This document shows positions 6,248 to 17,801 of a stretch of DNA of 64,000 nucleotides, piece by piece (position 1 is the stretch's first letter; every line of letters begins with the position of its first letter). This DNA is from Bacillota bacterium (GTDB lineage Bacteria > Bacillota > UBA4882 > UBA8346). A model generated the notes under the pieces. The model was not told where the DNA came from. It saw only the letters and a program-made list of their open reading frames with translations, and did not search any database. The DNA lies in NCBI GenBank assembly GCA_012735315.1, contig JAAYHS010000071.1:1-64000 (forward strand), given 5' to 3'. The translations under genes and the position numbers were made by a program.

Positions 6248-7750
6248 GTGAAGCAAAAGGTTTTATTAGGTCTGGTTTTAAGCGTAATCGCCTGCCTGTT
6301 GGTATCCACTTCCGTTTTAGGCGCTTACAGCGGTTATTACCAGATTCGAAACGCCAATAATCCTGAGATGTACATCGACGGCATGGGTCGCACCGACAAC
6401 GGCGCCGATCTTTGCATGTGGGCGTACACCACCCATTATAACTCTCATTGGGAGATCATTGATGTCGGCGGCGGTTATTATCAATTGAAAAACCGCACCA
6501 CCGGCTTGTTCATCGACGGTATGGGCCGTACCAATAGCGGTGACCCCTGCGGTCAATGGGCGAACACCACCCATTACAATTCCCACTGGAAAATCTCTTC
6601 CGATAAGGGCTATGTAAGGTTCCAAAACCGCTCTACCGGCCGTTATTTGGACAGCAACGGACAAACCTCCAACGGCGCCGTTGTGGTGCAACGGAGCGGC
6701 AGATCCGACTTGGCCCAACGCTGGACATTGGTTTCCATGGGAGGAGGCGGAGGCACACCGACTGCAACTCCGAAGCCGACTGCAACTCCGAAACCGGGAG
6801 CAACCCCGACACCGAAACCCACACCGACCAGTGGCGGTGGTGGCGGTCCGGTTCCTAGCGGCTTGGTAGGTTTCGCCACCCTTAACGGCGGCACCACCGG
6901 CGGCCAGGGCGGGCCCACGGTTACCGTAAGCACCGGCACCGATCTGCAGAATGAAATTAAAAAAGGCGGCCCGAGAATCATTCAGGTAAACGGCACCATC
7001 ACTACTTCCAACTCCGGCAGCTTGAGTAAAATCGACGTTAAAGACGTTAACAACATTACCATCATCGGTGTTGGAACCAGAGGTGAACTTAACGGTATCG
7101 GGATCAAGGTCACCCGTGCCAATAATATCATTATCCGCAATCTAAAAATCCATCATGTCCTCAAAGGGGATAAAGATTGTATCAGCATCGAAGGACCCGT
7201 CAACAACATCTGGGTCGACCACTGCGAATTGTATAACCAATTCCAAGGCGTTGACAAAGATTATTATGACGCATTATTAGATACCAAAAAGAACGCTGCC
7301 TACCATACCTTCTCCTGGAATAAACTTCACGACAGTTGGAAGGCCAGTCTTGCCGGTTCTTCGGAAAGCGATACTTATGATCGCAGGGTTACCTACCATC
7401 ACAATTCGTTTATAAACATTAATTCCCGGTTGCCGTTGTACCGTGGCGGTCAGGGACACGTTTACAACAATCACTATAAGGATGTCCCAACCACTGCGGT
7501 TAACTCCCGGCTCGGCGCCAGATTACGGGTTGAGTACAATTACTTCGAGAACGTCAACAACTGTATCGGTTCCTGGGATAGTAAGGAAGTCGGTTACTGG
7601 CACGTGGTTGGCAATGTCTTCTCCAATTGTTCCGGTAGCCAGCCGACCTCGTCGACTTGTACCTATAACCCGCCGTATAGCTACAGCATTGAATCGACTT
7701 CAACTCTGAGATCTACTATCAACAACAATGCCGGCGTTGGTAAAATTTAA
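6248..7750 (+). CDS. Secreted pectate lyase, ricin-type module plus PL1 domain
   Basis: A 500-residue extracellular enzyme that cleaves polygalacturonate by beta-elimination. Order: signal peptide ([22 protein letters not shown], about residues 3-24), a ricin-type beta-trefoil (CBM13-like) with three repeats each containing [24 protein letters not shown] and ending in W, a Thr-Pro-Lys linker (about 170-195), and a PL1 beta-helix (about 205-500). PL1 hallmarks are IWVDHCE, the SSESD calcium-site region and SRLPLYR, which carries the conserved catalytic arginine. The GTG start has the SD AAGGAGG at 6234-6240. The ricin module is shared with the downstream PL3 gene. A strong promoter and long leader precede it and a terminator follows. 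Confidence 0.93.
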
Positions 7751-8305: not shown

Positions 8306-8359
8306 GATCTTGTTTGTGAGTTATTAGTTTCCAAAAAAACTTAAAAGGAGGTCACAGTG

Positions 8360-9547
8360 ATGAATCGCAAAATTCTACTGGGTTTAGTGTTGAGCTTAAT
8401 CGCCTGCCTGTTGGTATCCACTTCAGTTTTAGGCGCTTACAGCGGTTATTACCAAATTCGGAACGCCGGTAATACTTCGATGTATATCGACGGCATGGGC
8501 CGCACCGATAACGGCGCCGATCTTTGCATGTGGGCGAACACCACTCATTATAACTCTCATTGGCAGATCATTGACGTCGGCGGCGGTTATTATCAATTGA
8601 AAAACCGCAGCACCGGCATGTTCATCGACGGTATGGGCCGTACCAGTAGCGGCGACCCTTGCGGCCAGTGGGCAAATACCACCCATTACAATTCCCACTG
8701 GAAAATCTCTTCCGATAAGGGCTATGTAAGGTTCCAAAACCGCTCTACCGGCCGTTATTTGGACAGCAACGGACAAACCTCCAACGGCGCCGTTGTGGCG
8801 CAACGGAGCGGCAGATCCGACTTGGCCCAACGCTGGACAATAGTTTCCGTGGGCGGAACCGCGCCTACACCGCCTCCGGGACCGACCCCGACACCGAAAC
8901 CTGGTCCAACTCCGACTCCGAAACCCACACCGACCAGTGGCGGCGGCAGTGGCGGAACCAAATATATCTCCAGCACCATCGTGGTAAAGTCGGGTCAAAC
9001 CTATGACGGCGGCAACCAAACCATTATTGCCCAAGGGATGGGCGATGGCAGCCAAAGCGAAAGTCAAAAACCGATTTTCAAGCTTGAAAGCGGCGCTAAT
9101 TTACGGAATGTTATCATCGGAAAACCGGGCTGTGATGGGGTGCATTGTTATGGTAACAATAATGTCACCAATGTGAGATGGGTAGATGTCGGAGAAGACG
9201 CTTTGACCGTAAAAGGCGGCGACAGCGCCAACGCTGGTACAATTAATGTTGACGGCGGTTATGCCAATTACGCCGATGACAAGGTCTTCCAGGTAAATGC
9301 GCCTTGTACCTTAAGAATCAGTAATTTCAGCGCCGATACCATGGGTAAGCTCGTCCGTCAAAATGGCGGGAAAACATGGAAGATGACCGTGTATCTTACA
9401 AATGTAACATTAAACAATGTAAAGGAAGCCGTTTTCAGAACCGATTCCAGCTCATCCCGTGTCTATTACCGGAACTTAAAGGTCACCAATTTCAAAGGTT
9501 CCAAGGGTTGGTGGTACGGTAGAGATTCCCAAGCTTCGCCGTATTAA
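8360..9547 (+). CDS. Secreted pectate lyase, ricin-type module plus PL3 domain
   Basis: A 395-residue extracellular pectate lyase. It has a signal peptide ([21 protein letters not shown]), a ricin-type beta-trefoil almost the same as in the PL1 enzyme upstream, a Pro-Thr-Lys linker (about 172-195) and a C-terminal PL3 catalytic domain. PL3 features are TYDGGNQTII, QKPIFKLESGANLRNVIIG, DGVHCYG, VRWVDVGEDALTVKGG and the C-terminal VYYRNLKVTNFKG. The ATG at 8360 is 8 bases after AAGGAGG; a GTG directly before it (8357) is also in frame. The bulk of the ricin-module DNA differs moderately from its paralogue, but one block is nearly identical (see findings). Confidence 0.93.
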   Translation: MNRKILLGLVLSLIACLLVSTSVLGAYSGYYQIRNAGNTSMYIDGMGRTDNGADLCMWANTTHYNSHWQIIDVGGGYYQLKNRSTGMFIDGMGRTSSGDPCGQWANTTHYNSHWKISSDKGYVRFQNRSTGRYLDSNGQTSNGAVVAQRSGRSDLAQRWTIVSVGGTAPTPPPGPTPTPKPGPTPTPKPTPTSGGGSGGTKYISSTIVVKSGQTYDGGNQTIIAQGMGDGSQSESQKPIFKLESGANLRNVIIGKPGCDGVHCYGNNNVTNVRWVDVGEDALTVKGGDSANAGTINVDGGYANYADDKVFQVNAPCTLRISNFSADTMGKLVRQNGGKTWKMTVYLTNVTLNNVKEAVFRTDSSSSRVYYRNLKVTNFKGSKGWWYGRDSQASPY

Positions 9548-14623: not shown

Positions 14624-16690
14624 TTATTCTTCCTCTTCAGACATATGTTTTTTAGCCTCCGCGATAATCGCTTCCGCCTGCTGAGCGGGAACCTCCTCGT
14701 AATGATCAAAATTAACGGTGAAATCAGCCCGGCCTTGGGTCATCGAACGTAAATCAATCGCATATTTGGTCATTTCCGCTTGCGGAACCAATGCCCTTAC
14801 TATCTGATATCTCCCCTCCGGTTCCATCCCTAGAATCTTACCGCGTTTTTTATTTAAATCACCGATGACGTCCCCCATGAACTCTTCGGGCGTCCTGACC
14901 TCCACGCTTAAGATGGGTTCCAACAAAATCGGTTTAGCGTCCATAAAACCCTTTTTAAAAGCCATCGAAGCAGCGATCTTAAAAGCCATTTCCGATGAAT
15001 CCACCGGATGGTAGGAGCCGTCGTACAACGTTACCTGGATATCCACTACGGGATAACCGGCCAAAACACCCTTCTCCATCGTCTCGCGCACGCCTTTTTC
15101 CACCGCCGGACGATAGTTTTGCGGAACCGACCCGCCGAAAATCTTATCGACAAATTCAAATTCGCCACCCGGCAGCGGGTTAAGTTCGAGCCAAACATGG
15201 CCGTATTGTCCCCGGCCGCCGCTCTGTTTTTTGTGTTTGCCTTCGACTTTGGTGGAACCCTTAATGGTTTCTTTGTAAGCGATCTTCGGAGCTTTTAGAT
15301 TAACTTCAACCCCGAATTTTTTATGGAGTTTGCTGGTAATAACCTCGATATGGAGATCGCCCATGCCGGAGGCCACGATTTCATTGGTCACCGTATCTTT
15401 AGTAACTTGAAATGTCGGATCTTCCTCCATCAGTCGGGACAAACCGGCGCTGATCTTTTCTTCGTCGCCTTTGGCTTTCGGTTCCACGGCCAACGAAAGT
15501 TTGGGTTTGGGGAATTCTATTGCCGGTAAAACAATCGGTTTATCTTTTTCGGATAAAGTGTCCCCGGTATAAGTCTCCTGTAGTTTGGCTACACCGCCGA
15601 TATCTCCCGCTCCCAACTCGGTAGTGGGTTCTTGGTTTTTCCCTTTAATGATGAATAACTGTCCGATACGCTCATTCTTTCCTTTGCTTGAATTAAACAC
15701 CTGCGAATCGGATTTGATAACTCCCGAAAAAACCCGGAACAAGGTGAGTTTACCCACAAAGGGATCAGCCATTGTTTTAAAGACCAGGGCTGAAAATGGT
15801 TCGTTATCCGAAGGTTTCCGCTCTTCTCCTTGAGCGTTCTTAACCGGGCCCCGATCGACCGGCGAGGGTAAGAATTCGGTAACCACATCCAGGAAATTAG
15901 TGATTCCGATAAGCTTAAGCGAGGAGACGGCCAAAACCGGAACCAATTGCCCGTTGATGGTTCCTTGGCGCGCGCCGCTCAATAATTCGTCTTGGGTTAA
16001 TTCCTGGCCCTCCAAATATTTGGTCAGCAAATCATCATCCGTCTCGGCTACCGACTCCACCAACATTGACCGGTATTCTTCAACCTTAGACTCCAAATCG
16101 GCCGGGATCGGCTTTTCAACCATTTTCCCGCCTTCGAAGACAAAGGCTTTGTTTTTCAAAACATCAACAATTCCCTGAAACTTATCGGCAGCCCCGATTG
16201 GGATTTGCACCGGAATTATGCTGGTTCCGAACCTTTGACGCAGTGCCGTTACCGCTCCGTCAAAATTCGCATTTTCACGGTCCATTTTATTGATTACGAT
16301 CACTCGGGGCAACTTCTGCTCTTGGATATAATCCCAAGCCTTCTCGGTGCCGACTTCCACTCCGGATACGGCGCAAACCACAATACAAGCAGCATCAGCC
16401 GCTCTAATCGCCCCTTTGACTTCTCCGACAAAATCGAAAAATCCGGGCGTATCCAAAATATTAACCTTGACGTCCTTATATTCTACCGGGGCAACGGAAG
16501 CCCCAATACTGATCTTGCGCTTGATTTCTTCCGGATCATAATCCATGATGGAAGTTCCGTCATCCACCTTGCCGAAACGGTCCACCGCTTTGGTTGAAAA
16601 CAGCATCGCCTCGGCCAACATCGTTTTTCCACAGCCGCCATGTCCCAAAAAAATTAAATTCCTGAGTTGTTCTACTTTGTACCTTTTCAA
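14624..16690 (-). CDS. Elongation factor G-like translational GTPase (EF-G paralogue)
   Basis: About 688 residues with the full EF-G layout: GTPase domain with P-loop GHGGCGKT, DTPGFFDF and NKMD, then domains II-V (SGGRGQYGHVWLE in domain IV, KRGKILGMEPEG in domain V). It belongs to the stand-alone EF-G2 type common in Bacillota, since it lies away from rpsL-rpsG-tuf. Translocation or recycling under special conditions is inferred. I choose TTG 16690 (MKRYKVEQLRN), which follows SD GGGAGGG at 6 bases; ATG 16714 is in frame but has a poor SD and adds MKLWGGNL, unlike family N termini. Confidence 0.88.
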   Translation of the reverse strand: MKRYKVEQLRNLIFLGHGGCGKTMLAEAMLFSTKAVDRFGKVDDGTSIMDYDPEEIKRKISIGASVAPVEYKDVKVNILDTPGFFDFVGEVKGAIRAADAACIVVCAVSGVEVGTEKAWDYIQEQKLPRVIVINKMDRENANFDGAVTALRQRFGTSIIPVQIPIGAADKFQGIVDVLKNKAFVFEGGKMVEKPIPADLESKVEEYRSMLVESVAETDDDLLTKYLEGQELTQDELLSGARQGTINGQLVPVLAVSSLKLIGITNFLDVVTEFLPSPVDRGPVKNAQGEERKPSDNEPFSALVFKTMADPFVGKLTLFRVFSGVIKSDSQVFNSSKGKNERIGQLFIIKGKNQEPTTELGAGDIGGVAKLQETYTGDTLSEKDKPIVLPAIEFPKPKLSLAVEPKAKGDEEKISAGLSRLMEEDPTFQVTKDTVTNEIVASGMGDLHIEVITSKLHKKFGVEVNLKAPKIAYKETIKGSTKVEGKHKKQSGGRGQYGHVWLELNPLPGGEFEFVDKIFGGSVPQNYRPAVEKGVRETMEKGVLAGYPVVDIQVTLYDGSYHPVDSSEMAFKIAASMAFKKGFMDAKPILLEPILSVEVRTPEEFMGDVIGDLNKKRGKILGMEPEGRYQIVRALVPQAEMTKYAIDLRSMTQGRADFTVNFDHYEEVPAQQAEAIIAEAKKHMSEEEE

Positions 16691-16714
16691 AAGATTCCCT
16701 CCCCATAATTTCAC

Positions 16715-17040
16715 CCAAGTTCCGTTCGACCTTTAGGATAATTTGTTCATCTAAAGCTAAAAGCGGTTTCATAACTTAACGTCCGACTATTTCCATCCCC
16801 TCTGAGAAGTCGACCGGTTCTTTGATTTTTCCTATGCTGATATATTAAATTTATGAAACCCGCTATCGGATTACTATTCGTTTATTCGATTTAACTAATT
16901 TATTTCCTGCCGCTTACAAAATTTTTATGAGTAAGGAACGCTATTTTGGCTTAATAAAATACCAATAATAACTGCTTCTGGCATTAATTTTTATTTAATT
17001 TTAGGAATAAAAGAAGCGGCGCTCAGCATAATAATGAATG
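16715..17040. other. Intergenic region between EF-G paralogue and RNA candidate
   Basis: AT-rich, with no coding frame supported. It should carry the minus-strand promoter of the EF-G gene and a plus-strand promoter for the structured element that follows, but I find no clear -35/-10 pair. CATAAT at 17027-17032 is a possible plus-strand -10. Confidence 0.35.
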
Positions 17041-17214
17041 AACTACCGGTGAACGGCCGACCAATCTGCCCTGAGAGCGATGCTCTCCGTTAGGGGCAAC
17101 TATTGTCGCTAGACACGACGTTCGTCGTGATTTCTAGAAAACGCCGGCGTAGCTAACGGTTGTTAGTTCGGCGCATGCGCCCATAAAATTGAGTTTGATG
17201 CGTTCCCGGTAGTT
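17041..17214 (+). ncRNA. Candidate structured noncoding RNA, unknown class
   Basis: A 174-base element closed by a 14-bp stem: AACTACCGG (17041-17049) with CCGGTAGTT (17206-17214) and GAACG (17051-17055) with CGTTC (17201-17205), one bulged T. Inside are three hairpins: TGCCCT/GGGGCA enclosing GAGAGC/GCTCTC (17067-17098); CTAGA plus CACGAC with GTCGTG plus TCTAG (17109-17137); CGCCG/CGGCG enclosing GCTAAC/GTTAGT with a GGTT loop (17142-17173). Two wobble pairs (T17072-G17093, G17052-style G17152-T17167) are G-U on plus but A-C on minus, favouring plus. A terminator follows at once. I recognise no known family. Confidence 0.55.
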
Positions 17215-17218
17215 TAGC

Positions 17219-17243
17219 GCCCGTCTATCATAGACGGGCCTTT
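17219..17243 (+). terminator. Intrinsic terminator directly after the RNA candidate
   Basis: A 9-bp perfect stem GCCCGTCTA / TAGACGGGC with a 3-base loop, then CTTTAATTATTTATT on the plus strand. The minus strand lacks a T run. It fits termination of a plus-strand RNA ending just after 17214. Confidence 0.65.
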
Positions 17244-17249
17244 AATTAT

Positions 17250-17801
17250 TTATTCGGCGGAGAGACCGTTAAGCCCTTCAAGCAAGTGGAGCTTTTCTTT
17301 CCCGTCTTTAAAGGGAATCCCTTTTTTCAAATCCTCGATCTCCGCCTCAGGTAGTTTATTAAGATTAAGAGCGATTTTTTCCATGATCGGCCCCGGCTTA
17401 TCGGGAGTGCCGCGATACACGGCTATCCTTTGACCTTCGATTCCTAAAAACTGATTTTTAAGACAGGAATCGCATAAATCTTGATTTTCCTCATAATAGA
17501 CATACAAACCGTCGTTTTCTTTAACAATTTGTCGGGAATGATTCACGATCACCGACTTGAAAGGCTTCTCTAACTGATATTCCGTGCGTTTCGATACGGT
17601 ATGCCCGCACATGGTATATAATTTACGACTCTCTAATACCCACTTCCGGGGCGCGACGGTATCGGAAGGAGAAACCAACTTTTGAAACTTGCCGATTAAG
17701 GCCGGATCCTTTTTGAACCACCAACCGATCATGACCATTATCAACAAACTGATCCCAATTACCCGGAGTATCGTTAACCTTGACCAAGCAACCTTTCTCA
17801 C
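17250..17801 (-). CDS. bofC: BofC-like sporulation protein
   Basis: A 183-residue protein with an N-terminal membrane segment (ILRVIGISLLIMVMIGWWF) and an extracytoplasmic C-terminal BofC domain: YVYYEENQDLCDSCLKNQ, FLGIEGQRIAVYRG and LPEAEIEDLKKGIPF. BofC of Bacillus acts in the intermembrane space of the forespore, restraining SpoIVB-dependent activation of sigma-K. The gene follows yebC, the same neighbourhood as in Bacillus subtilis, and a terminator separates the two. The N-terminal region differs from the Bacillus protein, so only the C-terminal domain is firmly assigned. It supports endospore formation. Confidence 0.8.
   Translation of the reverse strand: MRKVAWSRLTILRVIGISLLIMVMIGWWFKKDPALIGKFQKLVSPSDTVAPRKWVLESRKLYTMCGHTVSKRTEYQLEKPFKSVIVNHSRQIVKENDGLYVYYEENQDLCDSCLKNQFLGIEGQRIAVYRGTPDKPGPIMEKIALNLNKLPEAEIEDLKKGIPFKDGKEKLHLLEGLNGLSAE

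Follow-up and report, generated by a model that had tools for sequence, protein, structure and literature searches.

A structured non-coding RNA of ~207 nt, with its own predicted forespore-type promoter and a terminator, is encoded on the plus strand in the gap that separates bofC from a gene for an EF-G-like GTPase; it is most likely (with a probability of roughly 0.6) a reduced paralogue of a sporulation-linked RNA that we call ring RNA. It lies in the window, that is, the whole 64,000-nt stretch of Bacillota DNA analysed here. On slightly better than even odds, ring RNA represents a new forespore RNA class present in about 40% of sampled phylum genomes, which was duplicated in the window's lineage, with the bofC copy cut to ~207 nt and kept by selection, possibly in a new role.

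The initial annotation had described a closing stem around three inner hairpins, two of them with 4-base loops, and we located this structure at 17041-17214 (Table 1). None of 200 dinucleotide shuffles (−62.3 ± 4.3 kcal/mol) was as stable as the fold of 17041-17239 (+) at −86.6 kcal/mol (z = −5.64), confirming that the segment holds a real folded structure. An alternative helix shares two bases with the 3′ arm of the closing stem P1, and may reflect either a switch or an alignment effect. A 9-bp terminator with a T-rich tail on the plus strand only, as annotated, was also found. As 1.8 terminator-like sites are expected by chance in the 1.4 kb scanned, it is the position directly after P1 that counts; an equivalent hairpin is present in syntenic loci.

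Table 1. Features of the window RNA and its neighbourhood (positions in the window).
Feature	Position	Strand	Basis or remark
Promoter-like site GAATA-N17-CATAATA, forespore sigma type	17005-17033	+	exact pattern match
Boxes of the promoter-like site	−35 17005-17009, −10 17027-17033	+	calibrated pattern
P1 closing stem (14 bp), 5′ arm, AACTACCGG-T-GAACG	17041-17055	+	duplex taken alone z = −4.3; kept with changes in sister species G001
P1 closing stem, 3′ arm, CGTTC-CCGGTAGTT	17201-17214	+	partner of 17041-17055
P2 hairpin, inner part TGCCCTGAGAG...CTCTCC...GGGGCA	17059-17106	+	fold; motif weakly like P2 of G007 and G003
P3 hairpin, 4-nt loop	17109-17137	+	fold; 1 doubly compensated pair in G001
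CGCCGGCG element	17142-17149	+	sequence comparison; between P3 and P4 in G001, G003 and G006 too
P4 hairpin, 4-nt loop	17151-17168	+	fold; kept in G001
Alternative helix CGCAT/ATGCG	17172-17202	+	competes with innermost P1 pairs; 3 doubly compensated pairs in G001
Intrinsic terminator GCCCGTCTATCATAGACGGGC, 9-bp stem	17219-17239	+	T-rich tail CTTTAATTAT to 17247
bofC, convergent neighbour marking the conserved locus	17250-17801	−	Pfam BofC_C, E = 2.8e-12
EF-G-like GTPase gene	14624-16714	−	other-side neighbour

The 3′ end of the promoter-like site lies 7 nt ahead of P1, so that an independent transcript of ~207 nt, from about 17040 to 17247 (+), is probable. Both flanking genes are on the minus strand, as the annotation stated, and yebC lies on the same side of the RNA as bofC. 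Because the next downstream genes are antisense to it, the RNA is not a leader. Separately, a block upstream of the EF-G-like gene (16865-16930; minus-strand letters CGGCAGGAAATAAATTAGTTAAATCGAATAAACGAATAGTAATCC) is strongly kept in G001 and partly across the family, and its pattern GCAGGAAAT...CGAATA has one further site in the genome (C204).

The same RNA is found at the same locus in the genus sister G001 with its fold kept, although the two species have diverged substantially: their BofC proteins share about 58%. The two-species consensus is far more stable than column-shuffled alignments (z = −6.0), contains five doubly compensated pairs and favours the plus strand (−45.8 vs −34.5 kcal/mol for the reverse complement). 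Beyond the genus, pairwise sequence similarity is weak, too little to stand alone, and named genomes searched for BofC relatives yielded none. The RNA occurs once in the 2.95-Mb genome (the remaining matches are 16-mers, E = 0.75), and the Rfam scan proposed with the annotation returned no family for it at gathering or relaxed thresholds. The annotation had offered an independent plus-strand RNA of a new class or a mobile palindromic element. The former reading is supported by a promoter-like site, a syntenic homologue with a kept fold, the lack of an Rfam match, and overwhelming covariation in the related RNAs described below. The latter can be given practically no credence: terminal inverted arms are present, but there is one copy only, at a single conserved locus that is syntenic across the family. 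What the annotation could not see is that the window copy is an atypical, reduced form beside a much larger family.

A bofC match was present in 27 of 29 genomes of the window's class. In all eight genomes of the window's family where the bofC/EF-G interval is readable, it contains an RNA with a closing stem, and at seven of these eight syntenic loci an exact promoter match lies 0-3 nt upstream of the assigned RNA start. At this locus, an RNA with clear covariation is present in three family members (G002, G004 and G009) and in a sister family. In the sister family, one member of which is a record named Hydrogenispora sp., the interval holds a full-length, longer RNA with the repeated motifs GAACNAAGACT, GTCGAGCAAAG and GCCGGCGCGAAGGTC. 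At one bofC locus (L043, G025:C74, 1270-2090) we observed four successive half-ring matches; here the whole ring RNA is apparently tandem-duplicated.

R1, a covariance model made from the first half of the sister-family RNA, found matches in 20 of 29 genomes of the class, among them G004 and G009 of the window's own family at the bofC locus, and in 46 of the 399 phylum genomes sampled. A model rebuilt from 76 matches (R2), which covers a half-ring, matched 169 of the 399. When 84,980 species genomes were scanned for a ring RNA motif, the 24 matches all lay in records named Bacillota or its members; viral contigs had no match to the motif. Across 122 distinct matches, many of which trained the model, 95.5% of cells pair compared with 70.5% in shuffles that ignore relatedness, and double changes number 885 compared with 255. 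Slid versions of the structure pair at only 22-46%. At relaxed thresholds, the related loci gave no credible Rfam match and only chance ones; the single real match near them is a neighbouring RNase P gene (L070). Ring RNA is not in Rfam 15 and we found no description of it in the open-licence literature, so the family is apparently previously undescribed. Several loci per genome occur in G003, G007 and G008 of the window's family, whereas most sister-family genomes have just one.

Full ring RNAs are typically ~360-390 nt long and have two similar halves, whose six helices close into a pseudo-twofold ring. In most carriers, two R2 matches lie about 65 nt apart, and the outer joints are a median of 366 nt apart (mostly about 310-400). 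The ends of the halves pair across the halves with mean energies of −22 and −19 kcal/mol, compared with −7 and −8 within them. As the closed six-helix ring was better in 41 of 41 full-length RNAs, ring RNA is best drawn this way; two separate three-way junctions per RNA were rejected, and helix 1 of R2 therefore represents two helices of the ring. The purine-rich joints GAGCNAA, GAGCAAA and GGCGCGAA are kept, and a two-base joint-joint contact covaries (G-C, C-G, U-A). Variation is free in the helices but absent from the unpaired joints, and no neighbour gene is constant. Together with the RNA's own promoter, this points to a trans-acting structural RNA, which might bind a protein or ligand rather than act by base pairing and would probably serve as a scaffold in the forespore.

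The distribution of ring RNA follows sporulation genes. Among R2-positive genomes, 165 of 169 carry spoIIIAE, compared with 166 of 230 other genomes (p = 3e-13, phylogeny uncorrected), and three of the four R2-positive genomes without it are assemblies about 84% complete. For promoters, we used a sigma-F-like pattern, GNATA-N15-GGNNANAAT, and a sigma-G-like pattern, GNATA-N17-YATNHTA. Their box letters, which we take to be those of B. subtilis, were then adjusted on the sigG upstream regions of the window's class. An exact match to one of the two patterns lies upstream of 34 of 66 distinct ring RNAs, compared with 0.4 in shuffles, and similar patterns keep a narrow distance of 14-20 nt to the module start. 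As a control, 19 of 21 sigG upstream regions of the class matched the sigma-F-like form, and in C. difficile mapping has placed a SigF promoter at sigG (PMC7438776). The sigG upstream was used because spoIIR sits behind sigG; it does so directly in the class (L175-L199), where the sigG promoter is near-invariant (GTATA-N15-GGCAATAAT). In the SASP gene control for sigma-G, neither form was found upstream of the SASP genes of the window's family, which makes a specific sigma-G assignment less secure than the wider term forespore-type. Many of these genes (L146-L163) have a common upstream motif of the ATAGCTGGG type, not the expected forespore boxes. Judged by their match to sigma-F/G-type boxes, the ring RNA promoters are thus putatively of forespore type, and the promoter of the window RNA would likewise predict expression in the forespore.

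How does the window RNA relate to this family? With filters off, R2 had no match at E ≤ 10 to the window RNA or its sister (L008, L009), whereas at the bofC locus G002, G004 and G009 score 36.5, 52.5 and 54 bits. The joints GAGCNAA, GAGCAAA and GGCGCGAA were not found in it, and only the CGCCGGCG element remains; it is too short for a second module and lacks the second half of the ring (P4-P6). As it fails R2, we leave it outside the family. Nonetheless, it occupies the bofC locus common to the recognisable class members, has a forespore-type promoter just upstream and is closed at its transcript ends by a 14-bp stem, against the roughly 12 bp or more expected of a ring RNA. Its position, promoter and closing stem make a reduced, divergent paralogue or positional relative of ring RNA the most likely reading. 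A full ring RNA is also encoded in the window genome (G000:C62:12687-13052), behind a sigK-like gene that we read as probably encoding sigma-K; this copy has a promoter of its own, GCATA-N17-TATTCTA. A third R2 match in this genome (C105) was discarded as chance, as it sits inside a purC-like coding sequence. In five genomes (G000, G001, G003, G006 and G007), the bofC copy is unrecognisable yet ring RNAs are kept elsewhere in each, which is best explained by a duplication after which the bofC copy was reduced. An ancestral ring RNA would have occupied the bofC locus; in the window's lineage, with a full copy kept beside the sigK-like gene, the bofC copy may have become free to shrink, retaining promoter, closing stem and hairpins. 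We infer descent from a full ring RNA on these grounds.

The lack of an R2 match, and the weak similarity to other RNAs at the bofC locus, would also fit a lineage-specific structured sRNA, unrelated to ring RNA, that took over the locus and its promoter and would then be a new small sporulation RNA in its own right. We regard this as unlikely, since the RNA agrees with recognisable members of the same family in where it lies, in the spacing of its promoter, and in its closing stem and terminator. If the RNA is instead a decaying relic, redundant beside the full copy and without function, the loss of its joints while that copy stands elsewhere would be explained, but not the retention of promoter and terminator, nor a fold kept with compensatory changes despite substantial divergence from G001; this reading is distinctly improbable.

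The convergent arrangement with bofC, itself a sporulation gene, raises the idea of a cis-acting antisense regulator of the bofC mRNA 3′ end. We give it very little weight, as the RNA stops before the bofC stop codon and the ring family adjoins unrelated genes in other clades. Its inferred expression is similar to that of CsfG, a known forespore sRNA of Bacillus (PMC3574147, PMC9147052). The gene for CsfG lies opposite the older ylbH motif (RF00516), which matches 148 of the 399 genomes; 80 of these are common with ring RNA, at separate coordinates where both places are listed. RF00516 had no match in the window RNA or in the sampled genomes of the window's class. This distribution and the coordinates rule out that ring RNA is CsfG, and homology of the window RNA to CsfG is hardly conceivable.

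Several known systems come close. CsfG, an independent RNA under forespore sigma factors that is widespread in spore formers (PMC3574147, PMC9147052), resembles ring RNA in its distribution and, putatively, in its expression, but it differs in sequence, size and locus. Bvs196 and other sporulation sRNAs described in Bacillus are also sporulation-linked (PMC9147052), a comparison made by description only. OLE, ROOL, GOLLD and raiA/ModT are likewise large, elaborate and strongly conserved non-coding RNAs, and the first three form oligomers (PMC12286853). Ring RNA is set apart from OLE, ROOL, GOLLD and raiA by its six-helix pseudo-twofold closed junction and its distribution in spore formers, and the Rfam models of these four matched neither the window RNA nor ring RNAs. 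Within Rfam 15 and the open-licence literature, we found no forespore RNA of such size or architecture described. To our knowledge, only a small number of conserved RNAs have been described from the forespore, even though sporulation ranks with the most thoroughly studied developmental programmes of bacteria. A structured RNA that keeps its unpaired joints fixed and is nearly confined to carriers of sporulation genes suggests that RNA has a part in spore formation or dormancy, and ring RNA adds a new six-way junction to RNA structural biology. Elsewhere in the window, two predicted secreted proteins (6248-7750 and 8357-9547) have a near-identical N-terminal repeat domain and differing C-terminal parts.
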